In this document: in pieces, positions 4,673 through 44,438 of the stretch
Layout of the letters: every line of letters starts with the position of its first letter
Numbering within the stretch: position 1 is the first letter of the stretch
Source of the DNA: Acidobacteriota bacterium
Lineage (GTDB): Bacteria; Acidobacteriota; JAAYUB01
Reading direction: 5' to 3'
NCBI GenBank assembly: GCA_016935015.1
Contig: JAFGRT010000068.1
Span: 1-52,207, forward strand
DNA length: 52,207 nucleotides
Position numbers and translations under genes: made by a program
The notes under the pieces: model-generated
The model's database searches: none
The model's input: only the letters and a program-made list of their open reading frames with translations
What the model was told of the DNA's origin: nothing

Positions 4673-6577
4673 CGGTCACTCCCGGTCGGTGACGGCCGGC
4701 GCAGCACGACATACGAATGGGCGAACCGATCCGCCGCGTCGCCCAGGGCACAGACGTCGTCATAAAATTCGGCGGCGACCACCGGTCCTTCGCATCGAAA
4801 AAAACCTTCAAACAAGAGGTTACCTTCGGCTACACGGGCAGCCAGTTGCAATTCCAGCGGCCCGCGGCGGAACGCAACATCGTCGGGCAGGGCCACGACG
4901 GCCGCGCCGTCGGGAAGCCGGATCCGCTCCGTGCGCCGGCTGGTCATCCCCGCTTCCAAAAACAGGGGATATGGTTCTTCACGGTCGCAATCCAGCGCTC
5001 CAAACAGTGACTGGAAGATGTCCAGAAAACCGTCGGCCTGTGGGATATGGAACAGCAGATAGTCCCCGGCACCAATGGCATAGTTCGGAAAAGTGAATGA
5101 AACATCCTGCCGGAAAGGGATGGCCAGGTCGCGCCAATCCCCCATCTTGATCGGGCCCGGCTGCGCCACGGAGCAAAATGTTCGCGCCGTTTGCAACCAC
5201 CAGCCGGCCGACTCAAGATCGGGAAACTCCCGGGCCATGCGGCGCAGCATGACGTCGTAATGACCATTCCCTTGGATGGTCGCGTCCGTAAGCAACGTAC
5301 CGTCGTCAGCCAGCCGGGAGAGGGCCTGAATGTGCCCGGTGCTGCGCGACGCCGGCTGTGACGGCACCGACTCGAGTCCGGCGCCCTCCGGCCGCAGACG
5401 CAGGATATGGCGCCCGCCGACATAGCTGTCACCAAACGAGGAGCCCAGACCCAGGGTGGGATCGAGAAAAATCTCACCGCCGTCCGGCAGCCGGACACAG
5501 GTCACAGCCCGGTCGAACGCCAACGCCGGCACCTGGCCGGATGGAGACGGATCAAAGGTCAGGAACGCCTCTTCGCATTCCAGGCCCAGCCGTTGCAGCA
5601 TGGCGATGAGCAGTATGTTCAGATCGCGGCCGGTGCCGGCCCGGCGATCCAGCACGTCGGCGGCGGACGCCGGTTCCTGGAGTGGCGCGATGGGAAATGA
5701 ACCCGGCAGATATTCGATTTCGCCGGAGACAAAACGGTACGCCGCCATGATCCGCGATGGAAGCTCCGTCTTGCCGGCGCTGGTCTGTCGGACCACCTCG
5801 TCCACCGATATATCGGGACTCAATTTGCCGCGGGCCAGCTCCCATGCGGCGCGCGACAATTCGGCCGGTGAGGCAAACGTGCTGACCACCACCCGCCGCG
5901 AGCGGTAAGCGGCATCGAGCATCAGCGCTTCCATTGCCAGCCCGGGCAGCTGCCGCCCCTGCCAGCGGTGCCGGACGACGTCCCCTGCCTGCTCCGAAGA
6001 ATATTCAAGCTCACCACCCTGCACAGCCCAGCGGAGCGGCATACCGGCCGGGGTCCGGATCTCCAGGCTCTTCTCCGCCACCGGATCCGTGTACTGGAAT
6101 AAAAACACGTCGGCGTAATGCGGGCAGGGGTCGCTGCGGCCGTCGTAATGCACCTCGAGTTCCACGATATCCTGCACGTTCAGGACGGAAATGGTGATCA
6201 CCTTGCGGCGAAATTTTTCAAAAATGGTGGGCACGTCCTCTCCCGGACGCCACGGTTCATCTCGGACGGCCACCGTATCCATCCCCCGCACCGACCCGTC
6301 GGGTTGATACACCTTGAGGGTCCGAAGCTCCACGCCGGATTGTCCCAATCGGTAGTGAAACCGTTCCTGCCGGTACTTTTCCACTCCGGCTGCGGACAGC
6401 ACACGCACCCGGCGACGAAAATCCTGCTGCCACGTGCCATCCGGAGCGATCGTCACCGTCACGGTCTCCGTGAGCACCTCGGCATCCGGGATGACGGCGG
6501 CCGATATGGCCGCGCCCGTCAGCAACCATAGCAGGAAAAAAGCGGCGGAGATGCAGCGACCGCGGCGGGTCCGCCAC
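4669..6577 (-). CDS. exported DUF3857/transglutaminase-like protein, first of a tandem pair; start disrupted by an apparent one-base frameshift
   Basis: About 635 residues. DUF3857-like N-terminal half (VRVLSAAGVEKYRQERFHY, VNVQDIVELEVHY) and a transglutaminase-like core. The motif expected as GDCKD reads GTGRDLN (Gly codon 5629-5631 in place of Cys), and FDH/FNH reads FDR (Arg codon 5509-5511 in place of His); LDPT with the Asp remains. The main frame has no ATG, GTG or TTG between the tRNA-Thr gene and a TTG at 6525 inside the hydrophobic segment. The GTG at 6577 in the neighbouring frame encodes MADPPRSLHLRR and would join FFLLWLLTGAAISAA, giving a good signal peptide, if the T6 run at 6536-6541 were T5. 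I therefore give 6577 as start. Downstream paralogue overlaps by ATGA. Confidence 0.7.
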
Positions 6578-6668
6578 CAGCGGACGTCATCCGTCCCGCC
6601 AAGGATCGTACGGCAGGGATGATGAGATGATTCAGACAGGAATAGTCGGAGATCTTCCCCAAGAAAAA

Positions 6669-6744
6669 TGGAGCCAACGAAGGGACTCGAACCCTTGACC
6701 TGACGATTACGAATCGTCTGCTCTACCAGCTGAGCTACGTTGGC
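6669..6744 (-). tRNA. tRNA-Thr (CGU anticodon)
   Basis: 76 nt with the 3' CCA encoded. The acceptor stem GCCAACG pairs with CGTTGGC. The anticodon stem GACGA/TCGTC encloses the loop TTCGTAA, anticodon CGT, reading ACG. The T arm contains GGTTCGAGTCC. A sigma70-type promoter lies just upstream, and the transglutaminase-like/ispH operon follows on the same strand, so read-through is possible. Confidence 0.96.
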
Positions 6745-6757
6745 TCTCAAACAGATC

Positions 6758-6785
6758 ATTCTATCCAAATTTTGAAAATTTACAA
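6758..6785 (-). promoter_or_regulatory. sigma70-type promoter of tRNA-Thr
   Basis: On the minus strand a -35 TTGTAA (6780-6785) and a -10 TAGAAT (6758-6763) are separated by 16 bp in an AT-rich stretch. The -10 ends 13 bp before the tRNA 5' end. It may also drive the operon down to ispH and the ThyX-like gene. Confidence 0.55.
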
Positions 6786-6901
6786 TCCATTTTATGAAAA
6801 AATGAACGGCGCTCCACCGCGAAACATGTGGTTGGAACATGCTGCAGGTACAAGGAATACCCCCCCCCGCTGTTCGCTTCAGTCAAGCCACTTGGGGGCG
6901 A

Positions 6902-9844
6902 TCAGAGCGTCGGAATCAGCGCCAGCATATCGGGCGAAAACTGGATGGACTTGCCCAGGAACGGACGGCCATTGGTGCTCTGGATCCGCATGTAGCCGAC
7001 GAAATTCTCGGGCACGGCCCCCGGTCCGAAAATGTCGGGATCGCCCAGGAAAAAGATCTTGTTGCCGTAGGGGGGGATCTCCTGGTCCGACAGGGACACC
7101 GCCACCTGATTTCCGTCGGAATCAAAGACCTCGAGTCGGGCGCGCACCGTCACATCTCCTGGATTGTGCAGCACATAGGACGTGTTGTATGGCGCAATGC
7201 TGATGGTGTAGGGGAAAACCAACCGGCCGACAACGTCTTCCGTCTGCGGCAGTTCGTCCACCGTCATGTTCTGGATCTTGGCATTGAATGTGCCCGGTTC
7301 GTCGGGGTCCTCGATGAGGGCCCACTCCGTGTAGGTATAGGCGCCTACCACAAAATTGCGGTCTACCTGGATGACAACAGAACCGGTCTGGGCCTGTTTG
7401 TTGAAGCGGCTCTTCTCCTCCTCGGTGAGGAGGCTGGACATATACACCTCATAACGTACCGTATTCTGAAAATCAGTTTCCTTGGTCACCACCAGGTTGC
7501 CGTCGTTGTCGTAAAAATCAAACCGGGCATGGGTCAACAGGGGAATGGGTTCCTCATTTTCATCCAGAACGTATTCCCCGTTTTCGTCCAGCAGCCATTT
7601 CTCGTTGAAACTGATCAGAATCACCGACGTATCGTAACCGTCGCCCACCACGTAATAGGGCAGGTGATAGGCCTGGGTCAGGGACTGCACCCCGGGAAAC
7701 AGGGGCGGGCAAGCGAACAGGTACAGGTTGTTCTCGAACTTGCTCTCGTATGTCATATAGACGCTGGTCTTGAGGTTGGCGAGGTTGAAAACGCGCATAT
7801 ACCCCCGGAATGGCAGATCGAGGCGCTGATCACGGCCGTAGGTGTTGGTGATGGTTCCCTGCTGGCTGTTGATCAATTCGCCGTCAGCGTCATAATAGGA
7901 CTGGATGATATCGTACTGATTGAAGTAGGGATTGCTGAAATGCAGCACGTTCTGCAAATTGCCGCCCGAAGACATGAACGGGAATACTGCATCCTGGAAA
8001 ACCGGCTGGTCGATGCGCAGGTAATCGCCCCGGATGATCTGCCCGTCCTCCCCGAAGACCCCGTTGTACACGAGGCCGCGCAACGGATATTCCTGATTAA
8101 CGGCTTTCAGGAAGCCATGTTGGCTTTCCACCTTATCATAATCGGGTACCAGGCCCTCAAACATGCGAACCAGCTGCTGCCCGGGCTCCAGCGTCAGGTC
8201 GATGGCGTCGATGGTGACGGCTTCGTCCTCGTCATTAATGTAATAGAACGGCAAGCCGGCATCGGGATTGTCCTCCTCAATAAACGAGTCGTCGGACTGG
8301 ATGGCCTGCATGCGGAAGGTCACCGGATCCTCCTCCAGATTGAGGAAGGCCACGGAGGAGAAGCGATCCTCCTCGAGAAAGACACTGTGGGCCGTAGATA
8401 AAACATCATTGGGTTGTGGTCGGATCACATCCAACGCCGACGTCAGAAATTTGGCGACCAGACAGCGGTCGGAACCCGGAATCGTCGCAGTGGTCACAGG
8501 AACTTCCCGTTCCTCGGATTCGTTGACGATCTGCACGATGGAGCAGGGTTCGTACTCCTGGATGGGCACCCGCACGATGGTTTCATAAAAATAGTTGGAC
8601 ATGACCTGGTCATAGCTGCTGAAGGAAGGGAACAGGATATCGAAGGTAGCGTCGGCATTTTCAATGAACGCGATCTCAGTAGTCCGGGACATGTTGTAGG
8701 GCGGTCGGCGATACTGCAACGTTTTGTAAAGCTCGAGCGTCGGCCACCGAAAAATGGAGATCTGAGGAAACCCATAGCCGCCTAACCCGCTGGTATCAAT
8801 CTGATCATACGAACTGACCTGCACCACCAGATATTGACCCGTCGGATCGAACCGGATGATGGAGGGGCTGTCGGCCACGATCAGGGTTTTATCTGAGCCG
8901 TCGTCGTTGGTCAGTTTCTGGCCGGTCTGGGGATTGAACAGGTAGACCCGATCTCCGGCAAAAAACTGGGTGGCGATACCGATGGAGGCGACCAGCCCAA
9001 TGGAATCATCTTCACTCAGCAGCACATTGTTCCGATAACTCAGATTGGGCGTATGGTCGTTACTGCCCGCGTCCTCCCGGGTCAGGATCACCTGGTGGAT
9101 CTCGGCCAGGGAATCAGCGTCGATGATGGAAACGGCATCACTGGTCGTATTGGTGCTACACAAGAAGGTGCCGTCATGACTCAAGGTCAGCCAGGCGGGT
9201 CCCACAGACGTATAATAATAAGGGTCAGGCACTTCCAGGGTCGCCCGGTTTTCGATCTGGTAATCCACCGCGTCGATCTTGATGACTTCATCGGTGAAGG
9301 TGGAGGAGATATAGGCCTTGGCGCCGCCCGGCGAAAAGACGATATTGCTGCCGAAACCGAGTCCTCCGCCGGGGATGTTGATATCGGCCACCGTCGCCAA
9401 TGTCTCCACATCGATGATCTGAATGTGACTGAGGTCATGGGGCTGGGCGCTGAATGATCCCAGATTCACCAGCCACAACTGGGTTTCCGTCGGGTTGAAT
9501 GTCATGAAAACGGGGAGGGAACCCACCGGCAGAGCCGATTCGATGCGATCGCCCGGATCTTCGGCCAGCGGCCGGATCACCAGGATATAGCCTTGCTCCA
9601 CCCCGCCGCCGGAGCCGATGTAGTTCACGAATCCCCGCTGCCCGTCGGCGGTCACCAGGATATATGGCGCTGTGATGTTCGCCTGGTTCATTCGAAAAGA
9701 GAGCTCCAATGCCCGGATTTCCGGCGGAGCATCCTCGGAATTGGGATTGATGCTGTAGAGTATGTTTTGGGCAAAACCGGGATTCGTGGCAACGACGAAT
9801 AGCAGGGCCAGCATCCCGATGCCCTTCAGATTTCCGAACCGCAT
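6902..9844 (-). CDS. large secreted beta-propeller-like protein
   Basis: 980 residues. The ATG at 9844 is preceded at 4-5 nt by GGGGAGGT, so the longer reading frame upstream is rejected. It begins with a signal peptide (MRFGNLKGIGMLALLFVVAT, cleavage near GFA-QN). Residues of about 30-420 hold repeated YncE-like surface-protein blade patterns such as GSNIVFSPGGAKAYISS, PAWLTLSHDGTFLCSTN and PSIIRFDPTGQYLVVQ. The rest is beta-rich with two sections resembling fibronectin or adhesion modules; the end (YVLHNPGDVTVRARLEVFDS, then GYMRIQS) recalls C-terminal modules of secreted proteins in Acidobacteria. No enzyme motif was recognised. It probably acts outside the cytoplasm. It stands alone, running away from the DciA-like gene. 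Confidence 0.8.
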   Translation of the reverse strand: MRFGNLKGIGMLALLFVVATNPGFAQNILYSINPNSEDAPPEIRALELSFRMNQANITAPYILVTADGQRGFVNYIGSGGGVEQGYILVIRPLAEDPGDRIESALPVGSLPVFMTFNPTETQLWLVNLGSFSAQPHDLSHIQIIDVETLATVADINIPGGGLGFGSNIVFSPGGAKAYISSTFTDEVIKIDAVDYQIENRATLEVPDPYYYTSVGPAWLTLSHDGTFLCSTNTTSDAVSIIDADSLAEIHQVILTREDAGSNDHTPNLSYRNNVLLSEDDSIGLVASIGIATQFFAGDRVYLFNPQTGQKLTNDDGSDKTLIVADSPSIIRFDPTGQYLVVQVSSYDQIDTSGLGGYGFPQISIFRWPTLELYKTLQYRRPPYNMSRTTEIAFIENADATFDILFPSFSSYDQVMSNYFYETIVRVPIQEYEPCSIVQIVNESEEREVPVTTATIPGSDRCLVAKFLTSALDVIRPQPNDVLSTAHSVFLEEDRFSSVAFLNLEEDPVTFRMQAIQSDDSFIEEDNPDAGLPFYYINDEDEAVTIDAIDLTLEPGQQLVRMFEGLVPDYDKVESQHGFLKAVNQEYPLRGLVYNGVFGEDGQIIRGDYLRIDQPVFQDAVFPFMSSGGNLQNVLHFSNPYFNQYDIIQSYYDADGELINSQQGTITNTYGRDQRLDLPFRGYMRVFNLANLKTSVYMTYESKFENNLYLFACPPLFPGVQSLTQAYHLPYYVVGDGYDTSVILISFNEKWLLDENGEYVLDENEEPIPLLTHARFDFYDNDGNLVVTKETDFQNTVRYEVYMSSLLTEEEKSRFNKQAQTGSVVIQVDRNFVVGAYTYTEWALIEDPDEPGTFNAKIQNMTVDELPQTEDVVGRLVFPYTISIAPYNTSYVLHNPGDVTVRARLEVFDSDGNQVAVSLSDQEIPPYGNKIFFLGDPDIFGPGAVPENFVGYMRIQSTNGRPFLGKSIQFSPDMLALIPTL

Positions 9845-38390: not shown

Positions 38391-38903
38391 TTACTGAACC
38401 CCCACTTCGACAGGCGTGTGTTCCCTGGCCTTTCGCCAGGAATCCAGCAGCACCTGGTGAAAAGTTTCACCGCCGTTGAGCGGAGCGATCTCCAGTTTCA
38501 TCGGCAGATCCGCTTGGCTGATGATCTCGAAAATATCGCCGCTCAACGTCTCGTTGCGGTGCCGGATATCTTCCACATTTCGAAGTTCCACGGCAGTGGT
38601 GCGCGGGGCCCGATGATGCAGGACCCGCTGGTTGGTGAGGATGATGGCTTCAGACCCATCCATGGAGAGAGTGGCGTCGTAATATGCCACCAACAACTCA
38701 CCGGAATTCAGAAGATGATGTTCCTGTAAATAGGCCAGCGCATATTCATCCATTTCATTGGCGAGCTTGACGCCACCCTCGGGGAGGGTGAACAACCAGA
38801 CCAGAAACCCGGCCATGATGGCGCCACCGATGACCACCACCACACCGCATCCGATCAGGAATATTTTGCCGGCGGTCATACGCCGGACCGAAGCTGCAGG
38901 CAT
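38391..38903 (-). CDS. small membrane-anchored protein with PH-like domain
   Basis: 170 residues from ATG at 38903, where GGAGGAG lies five bases upstream; the longer ORF is rejected. One N-terminal TM helix (IFLIGCGVVVVIGGAIMAGFLVW in two pieces) then a C-terminal region whose strands (AIILTNQRVLHHRA, TTAVELRNVEDIRHR, IFEIISQADL) resemble bacterial PH-like domains. Function unknown. Confidence 0.65.
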   Translation of the reverse strand: MPAASVRRMTAGKIFLIGCGVVVVIGGAIMAGFLVWLFTLPEGGVKLANEMDEYALAYLQEHHLLNSGELLVAYYDATLSMDGSEAIILTNQRVLHHRAPRTTAVELRNVEDIRHRNETLSGDIFEIISQADLPMKLEIAPLNGGETFHQVLLDSWRKAREHTPVEVGVQ

Positions 38904-39127
38904 GTTTCTCCTCCTCCGTAAAGCATCATCGTGGCGGTGGCCGGTGTCACCACAGCGGCTGCCGTCGGGGCTCCTGTCCAAATTGCATATTTCCTGTACG
39001 TTTGCTTCCGTCTGTGGCTTGGTTGTGGTCTGGAGTACAATCTCATTACAGCAAATCCATCCCTCTGATTCAAGGGAAATATTACGCGGCCATGTGAACC
39101 AAGTGATAAAGAAACGGTAAATCAAGG

Positions 39128-39186
39128 TTGACAGCCGGCATACAATATGTTAGCCTATCATCGTATTATTCCACAATATATTGTAT
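39128..39186 (+). promoter_or_regulatory. nrdDG control region: TTGACA -35 and two NrdR-type boxes
   Basis: TTGACA at 39128-39133 has only a weak -10 (TAGCCT, 39151-39156) at 17 bp. Two boxes match the NrdR consensus (core C-w-A-t-A-T-a-T-w-G): 39171-39186, with core CAATATATTG a perfect match, and 39140-39155, core CAATATGTTA (8 of 10). Core starts at 39143 and 39174 are 31 bp apart, about three helical turns, the spacing usual for NrdR. The rest of 38904-39293 holds no gene. Confidence 0.7.
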
Positions 39187-39293
39187 TTGGAGGATGAATT
39201 ACAGATATTCATTCCGTTTATACTGCAGTCGGCTCGTAATCCTGATGCGGCTGGGGGGGCTGTTCCGCGGTCTGAAGTTTGGGAGGCATTTCC

Positions 39294-41393
39294 ATGTTCC
39301 AGAAGATCAAGAAAAGAAACGGGGAGATTGTTTCGTTCGATTCCCAGAAAATTGTCCAGGCCATCCGGCGCGCCGGCGAAGCTACCGGTGAATTCGGAGC
39401 GGCCGAAGCCCGCAAGCTGACGGTCCGGGTGCTGACCCTGGCCCAAGGGTTGCTGGAAGGCGATGTGGCCTCGGTGGAAGACATCCAGGACATCGTCGAG
39501 GAGGTTCTGGTCGCTTCTCCCTACAAAAGAACGGCCAAGGCTTATATCATCTATCGTGATCAGCATGCCCGCATCCGCGAGATCGTTTCCCGCGCCGATG
39601 TCGACCTCATCGACCAGTACCTGGAGAAACTGGACTGGCAGGTGAAGGAAAACAGCAACATGTCCTATTCCTTGCAGGGGCTCAACAATTACGTCTCGTC
39701 GGAGATCAGCAAGATATACTGGCTGAACAAGATCTATCCGCCGGAAATCCGCCAGGCGCACCTGGCCGGCGATTGCCACATCCACGACCTGGGCATGCTG
39801 TCGGTGTATTGTGTCGGCTGGGACCTGCAGGATCTGCTGCTGCGCGGTTTCCAGGGCGCGGTGGGCAAAGTGGAAAGCGGCCCGGCCCGGCATTTGCGCT
39901 CGGCCCTCGGTCAGATCGTCAATTTTTTCTATACATTGCAGGGAGAGGCGGCCGGCGCCCAGGCGTTCTCCAATTTTGATACCCTGCTGGCGCCCTTTGT
40001 CCGCTTCGATCGGTTGGACTTCACCGACGTCAAGCAGGCCCTGCAGGAATTCATCTTCAACATCAACGTGCCGACACGGGTCGGTTTTCAGACCCCCTTC
40101 ACCAACCTGACCCTGGACCTGAAAGTGCCGCAAATGTATCGGGAAAAACCCGTCATTTTCGCCGGTGAATATCTGGACGGCTTTACGTACGGCGAGTTTC
40201 AGGAAGAGATGAATCTTATCAACCGGGCCTTTCTGGAGGTCATGGTGGAGGGCGATTCCAAAGGGCGTGTGTTCACATTTCCCATTCCCACCTACAATAT
40301 CGCCGCGGATTTTGACTGGGACGATCCCAACCTGGACATCCTTTGGAAGACGACGGCCAAATACGGCATCCCCTATTTCTCGAATTTTATCAATTCCGGC
40401 ATGTCTCCCGAGGACGCCCGCTCCATGTGCTGCCGCCTGCGGCTGGATCTTCGCCACCTCGAACGCAAAGGCGGCGGCCTGTTCGGTGCCATCCCCCTGA
40501 CCGGTTCCATCGGAGTGGTGACCATGAATTTGCCGCGCCTGGGCTACCGGTCCCAGTCACCGGAGGAATTCTTCCAGCTCCTGGAACAGCAGATGCTCCT
40601 GGCGCGTAAAAGTCTTGAAATCAAACGGAAAATCCTGGAGCATTTTACTGAAAAAAACCTGTATCCGTACAGCCGGTTCTATCTGAGCAGTGTGGCCCAA
40701 CGCTTCGGTCAGTATTGGAAAAACCATTTTTCCACCATCGGCCTGGTGGGGATGAACGAAGCCTGCCTCAATCTGCTGGGGTGCGATATCACTTCCGCCG
40801 CCGGCATTGAATTCGCCCAGCAGGTGCTGAACTTCATGCGGGAACGCCTGGTGGATTTTCAGGAACAGACCGGTAACAGTTACAATCTGGAAGCGACTCC
40901 CGCTGAGGGCACATCCTATCGGCTGGCCCGCCTGGACAAGGCTCGCTATCCGGACATCATCTGTGCCAACGAGGAACACTATCGCCAGGGCGCATCCCCC
41001 TTTTACACCAATTCGTCACAACTGCCGGTCAATTTCACGGATGATGTTTTCGAGGCCCTGGACCTGCAGGACGGCATCCAAACCCAGTATACCGGCGGCA
41101 CGGTGTTGCATCTTTTCGTCGGCGAGGAGATCCCCGATCCGACCACGGTGAAGGTGCTGGTTCGCCGGATCTGCGAACAATATCACCTGCCCTATTTCAC
41201 CATCACGCCGACATTCAGCATTTGCCCGCAACACGGTTACTTGTCCGGCAAACAGGAAACCTGCCAATGCGGCGCGGTCTGCGAGGTTTATTCCCGCGTG
41301 GTCGGTTATCTCCGACCCGTTACTCAGTGGAACGAGGGCAAGGCCGAAGAATTCAGCATGCGGCGTACATTTCAGGTCGTGGGTGAGCCATGA
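39294..41393 (+). CDS. nrdD: anaerobic (class III) ribonucleoside-triphosphate reductase
   Basis: 699 residues; GGGAGG lies seven bases before the ATG at 39294. It reduces NTPs to dNTPs anaerobically using a glycyl radical. The N-terminal ATP-cone (about 1-95; FQKIKKRNGEIVSFDSQKI) serves allosteric control. The catalytic barrel has GDCHIHDLGMLSVYCVGWDL, NINVPTRVGFQTPF and SMCCRLRLDLR. The C-terminus has the zinc-site cysteines (CPQHGY, CQCG) and the glycyl-radical region RVVGYLRPVTQWNEGKAEEF. The four-base overlap with nrdG (ATGA) couples them. Confidence 0.96.
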   Translation: MFQKIKKRNGEIVSFDSQKIVQAIRRAGEATGEFGAAEARKLTVRVLTLAQGLLEGDVASVEDIQDIVEEVLVASPYKRTAKAYIIYRDQHARIREIVSRADVDLIDQYLEKLDWQVKENSNMSYSLQGLNNYVSSEISKIYWLNKIYPPEIRQAHLAGDCHIHDLGMLSVYCVGWDLQDLLLRGFQGAVGKVESGPARHLRSALGQIVNFFYTLQGEAAGAQAFSNFDTLLAPFVRFDRLDFTDVKQALQEFIFNINVPTRVGFQTPFTNLTLDLKVPQMYREKPVIFAGEYLDGFTYGEFQEEMNLINRAFLEVMVEGDSKGRVFTFPIPTYNIAADFDWDDPNLDILWKTTAKYGIPYFSNFINSGMSPEDARSMCCRLRLDLRHLERKGGGLFGAIPLTGSIGVVTMNLPRLGYRSQSPEEFFQLLEQQMLLARKSLEIKRKILEHFTEKNLYPYSRFYLSSVAQRFGQYWKNHFSTIGLVGMNEACLNLLGCDITSAAGIEFAQQVLNFMRERLVDFQEQTGNSYNLEATPAEGTSYRLARLDKARYPDIICANEEHYRQGASPFYTNSSQLPVNFTDDVFEALDLQDGIQTQYTGGTVLHLFVGEEIPDPTTVKVLVRRICEQYHLPYFTITPTFSICPQHGYLSGKQETCQCGAVCEVYSRVVGYLRPVTQWNEGKAEEFSMRRTFQVVGEP

Positions 41394-42079
41394 AAATCGG
41401 CGGGATGCATACCTGTTCTCTCATTGATTACCCGGGTAAGATTTGCACCATCCTGTTCGCCCAGGGGTGCAATTTCCGCTGTCCATACTGTCATAACCCG
41501 CAACTGGTGGCGCCCGAACTGTTCACGGATCCGCTGCAGCAGGAGCGAATCTTCGAATTCCTGCGCCGCCGCCGCGGCAAGCTGGATGCTGTCACCATTT
41601 CCGGCGGTGAACCGACGCTGCAACCCGGTCTGGTCTCTTTTGTCCGCCGCGTCAAGGCACTGGCCTTTGCCGTCAAACTCGACACCAACGGCAGCCGCCC
41701 TGAAGTTCTATCGGAGCTGATTTCCAAAGGATTGCTGGATTTCATCGCCATGGATCTCAAGGCGCCCCTCGCCCGGTACGCCGAAGTGGTGGGAACACCG
41801 GTCGCCACGGAGGCCATCCGCGAAAGTGTCCGTCTCATTATGGCATCCGGCGTGGACTACGAGTTTCGGACCACCTGGGTACCATGCCTGCTGTCCACGG
41901 ACGACCTGGACGCCATGATGCAGGAAGTTCACGGCGCGGCCCGCTATGTGATCCAGCGGTTCGTCCCTGAACGGACACTGGATCCCCACTTCCGCTGCCA
42001 GACACCCCTGGACAGTCCATCCCCGGAAAGACTGGCCGCCCTGGCCGCTCCCCACGTGGCCGCCTGCCTGGTGAGATAG
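41390..42079 (+). CDS. nrdG: anaerobic ribonucleoside-triphosphate reductase activating protein
   Basis: 229 residues, radical SAM enzyme that installs the glycyl radical in NrdD. C27-x3-C31-x2-C34 (GCNFRCPYCHN) binds the 4Fe-4S cluster; VTISGGEPTLQPGL is the SAM-contacting GGE motif; FIAMDLKAPLARYAEVVG follows. Starts within the nrdD stop codon (ATGA), so it is translationally coupled to it. Confidence 0.95.
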   Translation: MKIGGMHTCSLIDYPGKICTILFAQGCNFRCPYCHNPQLVAPELFTDPLQQERIFEFLRRRRGKLDAVTISGGEPTLQPGLVSFVRRVKALAFAVKLDTNGSRPEVLSELISKGLLDFIAMDLKAPLARYAEVVGTPVATEAIRESVRLIMASGVDYEFRTTWVPCLLSTDDLDAMMQEVHGAARYVIQRFVPERTLDPHFRCQTPLDSPSPERLAALAAPHVAACLVR

Positions 42080-42149: not shown

Positions 42150-44438
42150 TCAGACAAGCGGATAAGTGCGTATACAATTGCGGCCATCGGCCTTGGCCTT
42201 CAGCAGCGCCTCGTCGGCTCGACGGACAAGTATCTCCACCGCCGCCGAATCCAGTTTCTCGTCCACAGCGAGGGAAGCCAGGCCGACGGAAATGGTAATA
42301 TGATAGGGATTCTCGTCGGAACCACGAAATTCGATTTCCTCGATGCGGCTGCGAAACCGGTCGGAGACGTCCACGGCATCTTGGAGATTTGTCTCTGGAA
42401 AGATCAGCAGGAATTCCTCACCGCCATAGCGGCCCATGATATCGGAAGATCGAAGATCGGCGGCGATGGCCGTGGCGACTCGTCTCAGGGTGATGTCCCC
42501 CACCGGGTGGCCGTAGCGATCATTCACCTGCTTGAAATTGTCCAGGTCAGCCATGCCGACGGTCAGGGGGCGATCATAGCGGACGGAGCGACGAAGTTCC
42601 GCTTCCAGTCGTTCAAAAGCCGCTTCCCGGCGCAGAATTCCCGTCAAACTGTCATACGTGGCCGATTCGTACAAGCGTGCATTCTCGAATACGAAGGAGA
42701 TGTGCCGGGCCAGATAATCCAGCATTTCCACTTCATCGGCCCGAAAACGCTCGCCGGTCGTTTTGGGGCCGATAAACAGCAGACCGATCAGCGCGCTGGA
42801 CCCGACCAATGACACCACATATTGGGCGCGGTGGCGTTCCAGCAGCTCGGCCAGCTCCGGTATTCTGACGCGAAGCCGCTCCGCTTTCAGGGGTTTTTGA
42901 ATACGGGTCAGGTAATTATCCTCCGGGTCTCCGGCCGGCAACAGCCATAACTCCGTCTCTGGGGCGGCGGATTCGGAAGGACCGACGGCCGCCAGCGGTG
43001 ACAGCAGATTGGTGACCGGCTCCCGCAGGTAAAGCGCCGCCGTCTCCAGGTCGAAGATTTTCTGCAGCTGCGCCACCAGATGCCGCCCCATGCGGGGTAC
43101 CTTGCCATGGGCCGGCAGGCGGCTGGCCAGATCCATCATTCGTTTACGGAAGGCATGCTGCTCGGGAAAAAAGCGGACATCGATGAAATTCTGAAAGGAC
43201 GACCGCAATGGCTGGAAAAGCAGCCCCAACAACAGGGCCGTACCGGCGAAGAGCCATATGGATGAGGCCTGCCCGCCCCCGAACAGCTGCGACAGCAGGA
43301 AACTGCCGGCGCCGATGGAGGCGTAGAAAATCAGCACCATCGCGCCGGTCAGGGCCGAATAGACCAATCCACGCCGGACGACAAGTTGGATGTCAAACAG
43401 CTGATAGCGATACATGGCCACAAACACCGCCACCGGAAACGGAAAAAGGATCAGGGCGAAAATATCGTTCAGCCAGAACGGCTCATCCAAGCCGCGCAGA
43501 TTGAGAATGGTGATACCGAAGGCATAGATCAGCCAGGGGAAAATGCCCAGCAAAACCAGCCCGGACTGATGCCGCCCCAGCGGATCGGGAAACCATAACG
43601 CCTGGCTGCCGAGAAAGTAAAGCAGCAGCATCGCCCAGAGGGGAAAAAAGACGAAGTCAAACAAAAATCTCCCGTAAATCAGTTCGCAATAGGGGAGCGA
43701 CCATTGCAGGTTGACGTTCAGATAGGCCAGGCCGAAATAGCCCGCCACCGCGAGCCCCACCATGTAAAAGGTGCGCACCAGCCAGGGATGTCGTTTAACC
43801 ACGGGATGCCGTTCCGGGATGGAACTGGCCAGGTGGACCTCCACACCGAACTGAATCCCGCTTAGCAGGAGGTAGATCATAAAAGCCACATCGCTCACCA
43901 GCGGCCTGCCAATAATGTCTACCGGCGGCAAGGCAAATTCCAGGGCGATGGCGGCCGTAAAAATGAACAACAGCCATTTGCGGATATCAGGCAGAGGCTG
44001 AAGGAGGGCGATAATGCCGATCCCCATATAGGCCAGGACGATGAAGATGTTCCCGCCGAAACGGACCCAGGGGAATGGGGCGCCGGGACGAATGACCAGC
44101 TCGCGAGTCCCTTCCCCCCGCCGGACCAAAAACGTGGCCGGCTCGCCGGGTTCGAAGCCGACAGCGATTGCATCATATTCTTTCCCATTGTGAACGGCTT
44201 GTCCGTTGAGAGCCAAAATGACGTCACCGACCCGGATCCCCCCCTCTGCGGCCGGAAGGTCCGGGGCCAGGGCTTCGACTTTCAGGTCATCCAGGCTGAT
44301 GATCATGCCCACCACATGGCTGACATTCTTCTGATGCCACCACCACTGACTGACCAATATGAGGAGGGCAAACGCCGCGACGAGCAACACCACCGCCACA
44401 CGAATCTTGCTGGTATCATATCTGCCGTTTCGTTCCAT
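42150..44438 (-). CDS. PDZ / multi-TM / GAF-like / GGDEF membrane protein (diguanylate cyclase)
   Basis: 762 residues. TM1 (about 12-30), a periplasmic PDZ domain (about 40-115; GGIRVGDVILALNGQAV), about eight further TM helices (about 125-410), a GAF-like region (about 430-590) and GGDEF (about 595-760). GGDEF signature GGEEF near 671 is intact, as are MADLDNFKQVNDRYGH and an RSSD I-site five residues before it. It should synthesise c-di-GMP and be inhibited by it. PDZ might sense envelope peptide ends. No EAL domain. A promoter lies 63 bp upstream. Confidence 0.85.
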   Translation of the reverse strand: MERNGRYDTSKIRVAVVLLVAAFALLILVSQWWWHQKNVSHVVGMIISLDDLKVEALAPDLPAAEGGIRVGDVILALNGQAVHNGKEYDAIAVGFEPGEPATFLVRRGEGTRELVIRPGAPFPWVRFGGNIFIVLAYMGIGIIALLQPLPDIRKWLLFIFTAAIALEFALPPVDIIGRPLVSDVAFMIYLLLSGIQFGVEVHLASSIPERHPVVKRHPWLVRTFYMVGLAVAGYFGLAYLNVNLQWSLPYCELIYGRFLFDFVFFPLWAMLLLYFLGSQALWFPDPLGRHQSGLVLLGIFPWLIYAFGITILNLRGLDEPFWLNDIFALILFPFPVAVFVAMYRYQLFDIQLVVRRGLVYSALTGAMVLIFYASIGAGSFLLSQLFGGGQASSIWLFAGTALLLGLLFQPLRSSFQNFIDVRFFPEQHAFRKRMMDLASRLPAHGKVPRMGRHLVAQLQKIFDLETAALYLREPVTNLLSPLAAVGPSESAAPETELWLLPAGDPEDNYLTRIQKPLKAERLRVRIPELAELLERHRAQYVVSLVGSSALIGLLFIGPKTTGERFRADEVEMLDYLARHISFVFENARLYESATYDSLTGILRREAAFERLEAELRRSVRYDRPLTVGMADLDNFKQVNDRYGHPVGDITLRRVATAIAADLRSSDIMGRYGGEEFLLIFPETNLQDAVDVSDRFRSRIEEIEFRGSDENPYHITISVGLASLAVDEKLDSAAVEILVRRADEALLKAKADGRNCIRTYPLV

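Follow-up and report, generated by a model that had tools for sequence, protein, structure and literature searches.

The nrdDG locus

The analyzed window, i.e., the whole stretch of 52,207 nucleotides, corresponds to contig C73 of a draft genome (G000) of 4.75 Mb, which consists of 237 contigs and is 96.78% complete. The window contains the nrdD gene (39294–41393, + strand), encoding a class III (anaerobic) ribonucleoside-triphosphate reductase of 699 aa. Its matches to the NCBIfam models NF006126 (1057.4 bits) and TIGR02487 (552.1 bits) are both above the cut-off, and its N-terminal ATP-cone is seen as a PF03477 match. The start of the next gene, nrdG (41390–42079, + strand), overlaps the end of nrdD; the encoded activating radical-SAM protein is of the NrdG2 type (TIGR02495, 213.2 bits, above the cut-off). 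The sequence GGGAGG (39281–39286, + strand), located 7 bases from the ATG codon, may serve as the ribosome-binding site of nrdD. Converging on nrdG, the opposite strand (42150–44438) encodes a protein of 762 aa that carries a GGDEF diguanylate cyclase domain at its C-terminus. Another stretch of this protein matches models of HtrA-type proteases, which we take to be PDZ-like.

The best sigma-70-like placement near the boxes described below starts with a candidate −35 element, TTGACA (39128–39133, + strand), followed after a 17-bp spacer by a weak candidate −10 element, TAGCCT (39151–39156, + strand), which shares three of six positions with TATAAT. A stricter promoter scan found no promoter, the −10 element being poor.

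In some deltaproteobacteria, nrdDG control has been ascribed to a cobalamin riboswitch, as proposed for D. vulgaris and Desulfuromonas (PMC545781), and a B12-dependent reductase, NrdJ, is also encoded in G000. Such control of the nrdDG genes of the window is nevertheless extremely improbable. No Rfam family matches positions 38900–39400, even at E-values up to 1, which contradicts the presence upstream of nrdD of a cobalamin riboswitch of the Rfam riboswitch families. In the entire window, the Rfam search gave nothing at the gathering score except two tRNAs.

Paired NrdR boxes upstream of nrdD

Two 16-bp near-palindromes, box 1 (39140–39155, + strand; ATACAATATGTTAGCC) and box 2 (39171–39186, + strand; CCACAATATATTGTAT), lie 31 bp apart from start to start, which leaves a gap of 15 bp. 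An earlier note on this DNA had placed a pair of NrdR boxes at these positions, between the TTGACA element and nrdD, and both the coordinates and the spacing were verified in the sequence. The boxes were scored against ACACWATATWTWGTGT, which we take to be the 16-base NrdR consensus; this consensus was not fitted to the data, and on this basis box 2 matches it at 14 of 16 positions and box 1 at 10 of 16. The same note had called the first box the weaker one, in agreement with these scores, and had reported a perfect core, which applies to box 2 only: there the 12-base core ACAATATATTGT is perfect. Box 2 retains both conserved G:C pairs (C at position 4, G at position 13). In box 1, position 4 is likewise C, but position 13 is occupied by A in place of G, so that one of the two pairs is gone. 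As judged from their letters, box 2 is a near-perfect NrdR box and box 1 a degenerate one; since it lacks a conserved G:C pair, box 1 is probably the weaker contact of the predicted operator.

NrdR boxes were first described by Rodionov and Gelfand in 2005 (as cited in PMC4409342). The published canonical gap between paired boxes is 15–16 bp (PMC12051234, PMC12176259), and the gap found here falls within this range, in line with the three-turn spacing named in the earlier note. According to the study of S. coelicolor NrdR, the protein binds DNA as a tetramer, the two binding sites of which fit boxes spaced by about three helix turns, a spacing explained by the cryo-EM structure; the G:C pairs are conserved in both boxes, and inversion of both pairs in box 1 lowered binding about 50-fold (PMC9110341). 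The nrdRJ and nrdAB operators of S. coelicolor likewise consist of paired boxes about three turns apart with conserved G:C pairs (PMC9110341). The closest counterpart by position is the E. coli nrdDG operator, in which two boxes with a 15-bp gap also precede nrdDG and specific binding depends on dATP together with either ATP or ADP (PMC12176259). As read from the printed probe, the upstream box of E. coli keeps both conserved G:C pairs, unlike box 1 of the window (PMC12176259).

The boxes are rare in the DNA around them. Box 2 is the sole 16-mer of the window, on both strands, that scores above 12, and a box of 14 or more occurred in 2 of 4000 dinucleotide shuffles of positions 39001–39293. 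Pairs of the quality of the nrdD pair were found in none of these shuffles at a spacing of 31 bp and in one at a spacing of 30–32 bp. Box 2 alone might function, with box 1 resembling an NrdR box by mere chance in an AT-rich promoter region; this would be compatible with NrdR control, and the score of 10 of 16, the loss of a conserved G:C pair and the seven of 374 intergenic 16-mers that reach 10 or more (box 1 and box 2 among them) speak in its favor. It is unlikely, however, given that box 1 stands at exactly the canonical distance, that the shuffles gave no 31-bp pair of this quality, that NrdR binds two boxes as a tetramer (PMC9110341), and that locus L076 carries a weak partner box with the same change as box 1 (C at position 4, A at position 13).

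A second pair upstream of nrdJ

A search of the 4.75-Mb draft for the 12-base core gave just two perfect matches, one before nrdD and the other before nrdJ, the gene of a class II B12-dependent reductase of 914 aa. With up to two mismatches allowed, the core gives 60 sites in the genome versus 36 for the pattern read backwards. The second perfect core (C54:23080–23091) belongs to the first box of a pair whose partner lies exactly 31 bp downstream, with nrdJ following. The earlier note had suggested searching for the same box pair before other nrd genes, and this search thus succeeded within the same genome. A 31-bp pair pattern, composed only after the nrdD and nrdJ pairs were known, matches these two sites of the genome, and no others, without mismatch; two further sites appear at two mismatches, where the reversed control pattern gives one.

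In locus L040 (G000:C54:16000–30000), the nrdJ pair occupies positions 7079–7125 and is followed by a promoter-like site, TTGACA-N17-TATAAA (7132–7160). The pair is thus entirely upstream of the promoter-like site, with 6 bp between box 2 and the −35 element, as read from the sequence. The arrangement recurs in the family relatives G001–G003, where TTGACA-N17-CATAAT is located one base further from box 1 than in G000. This geometry has a precedent, since the boxes of S. pneumoniae nrdHEF are also entirely upstream of the −35 element; the gaps differ, being 24 and 26 bp in S. pneumoniae and 15 bp here (PMC12051234). A class II reductase is also under paired boxes in S. coelicolor, where nrdR precedes nrdJ and is co-transcribed with it (PMC9110341), whereas no nrdR lies beside nrdJ in G000.

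Conservation of the pairs in related genomes

The nrdD loci were taken as the best 80 of 419 relatives, and the 78 with at least 100 bp of upstream sequence were kept (L044 and L049, with less than 100 bp, were left out). According to the record titles, these relatives are spread over many phyla. A 31-bp pair is present upstream of nrdD in 26 of the 78, whereas 40 shuffled sets gave a mean of 0.28 and at most 3; at a spacing of 30–32 bp, the count is 35 of 78 versus a shuffled mean of 0.7. At the thresholds applied, a 31-bp pair is lacking in the remaining 52 relatives. When the window is included, 31 bp clearly outnumbers every other spacing (27 of 79 regions), the next being 33 bp with 13. 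The controls gave no 31-bp pairs, either with the consensus read backwards (0/79) or in in-gene stretches (0/78). The conservation upstream of related nrdD genes that the earlier note had proposed as a test was therefore found. Within the same order, G004 has a 31-bp pair before nrdD; the three genomes of the same family, G001–G003, gave no match to the nrdD of the window at E-values up to 1e-30.

For nrdJ, a pair was accepted when one box scored 12 of 16 or more and the other 10 of 16 or more. At these thresholds, a 31-bp pair precedes nrdJ in all four family genomes searched (G000–G003) and, beyond the family, in G007 and G013, with a 32-bp pair in G008. No nrdJ pair was found in G004, G006, G028 and G052, of which G004 and G006 have nrdR; G005 gave no nrdJ match. 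The genomes G042 and G054, where the matches to nrdJ are fragmented over short contigs, were left out of this count.

Search for the nrdR gene

Searches of the 96.8%-complete draft with the Zn-ribbon, whole-protein and ATP-cone models did not reveal an nrdR gene. The earlier note had asked for nrdR in the genome and had named its absence as refuting the prediction; for the assembly, absence is what was found. The whole-protein model matches 54 of the 60 genomes searched, the misses being G000, G013, G028, G042, G052 and G054. By contrast, nrdR is present in every relative of the same family or order that was searched (G001–G005, including the three family relatives). Another regulator with a Zn-ribbon or ATP-cone in place of NrdR was considered and rejected, the only ATP-cones above the Pfam cut-off in the draft being those of NrdD and a kinase-like protein of contig C223. 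The latter (469 aa, N-terminal ATP-cone) is encoded in locus L041 (G000:C223:14000–30000) at 6477–7886 on the − strand; it presumably resembles 2-phosphoglycerate kinase.

The genes that usually surround nrdR were analyzed in the same genomes. In each of G001–G005, nrdR and thiL share a contig and are separated by no more than about 4 kb. The thiL search covered 12 genomes with nrdR, and in 10 of them the two genes are at most 5 kb apart on one contig; outside G001–G005, this applies to five of seven. The gene order in G002, G004 and G005 is hpt, nrdR, an hsp20-like gene, lon and thiL, the hsp20-like gene being our assignment by eye; hpt, lon and thiL of G002 are supported by NCBIfam matches. 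In G001 and G003, the gene list around nrdR is partly hidden by overlapping frames.

No thiL above the cut-off was found in G000, where the best match has 84.9 bits versus the cut-off of 184.15. The hpt and lon matches of G000 are weaker or differently placed (33% and 48% identity versus 71–72% for NrdJ), and the hpt-like protein is below the TIGR01203 cut-off. Since thiL, the usual neighbor of nrdR, is also missing above the cut-off, it is likely, though unproven, that nrdR exists in the organism and falls in one segment missing from the draft. Such a segment would also account for the weaker or displaced hpt and lon matches. The missing thiL is no proof of an assembly gap, because thiL above the cut-off is absent in five of 18 genomes (G000, G012, G013, G042, with its best match just under the cut-off, and G054), and G012 among them has nrdR. 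Direct proof that nrdR dropped off a contig end was not obtained either. The helicase gene adjoining hpt–nrdR in the family relatives matches C236:139–2658 of G000 with 56% identity, and it is followed there by a different gene on the same contig, so that no contig end points straight to the missing nrdR.

If nrdR had truly been lost in this lineage, the operators would be relics, either still to decay or maintained by some other constraint. Three models found no nrdR in the 96.8%-complete draft, as this would predict, and the phylum seems to include cases of true loss, namely G028 and G052 (98% and 97% complete), which have no nrdR and keep thiL above the cut-off. Moreover, a 31-bp pair precedes nrdJ in the G013 draft (96% complete), where nrdR was not found, and this counts against an assembly gap. 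The relic explanation is nevertheless improbable. Both pairs of G000 still stand at exactly 31 bp; G028 and G052 have no nrdJ pair, suggesting that boxes go when the regulator goes, and the persistence of the boxes in G000 thus favors a gap; and the joint lack of nrdR and of thiL above the cut-off fits one missing segment, the two genes lying within 5 kb in 10 of 12 genomes. Less probable still is a true loss of NrdR with another, unrecognized protein reading the two kept 31-bp operators at nrdD and nrdJ. The two genomes that lack both nrdR and the nrdJ pair, G028 (L140) and G052 (L139), belong to one genus of the same phylum and possibly represent a true loss of the regulon.

Proposed regulation of both reductases

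The boxes, their spacing, rarity and conservation, and the genes downstream of them were all observed directly. With considerable confidence, the pair at 39140–39186 can be regarded as an NrdR operator that would serve dATP/ATP feedback repression of both reductases, with nrdR probably located in sequence missing from the draft. The NrdR operator before nrdDG predicted in the earlier note is well supported by the boxes, the spacing, the pair at nrdJ and the recurrence in relatives; the regulator gene was not found in the draft, and in this respect the system differs from that of E. coli nrdDG (PMC12176259).

Box 1 is located between the candidate −35 and −10 elements of nrdD, its last five bases overlapping the −10 element, and box 2 lies just beyond. 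From these positions, a bound tetramer would be expected to block the candidate promoter directly. By analogy with other NrdRs described in the literature, NrdR may be assumed to bind at nrdDG as a tetramer, to sense nucleotides and to act as a repressor: the NrdR tetramer would cover the −10 region and the early transcribed region and turn the operon off, and when dATP falls, NrdR would let go of the nrdDG operator. At nrdJ, the second 31-bp pair would serve as the target of the same NrdR.

Judged by its sequence and by the comparison with relatives, the predicted nrdDG operator is a standard NrdR operator, a known type of bacterial feedback switch in a new location. The finding extends the NrdR regulon to a further lineage and, beyond this, confirms a known rule. 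In this genome, the class II and class III reductases, both found here, would be under one predicted switch. Since NrdJ gave no match in the ATP-cone model search of the draft, overall dATP feedback might reach this enzyme through NrdR.
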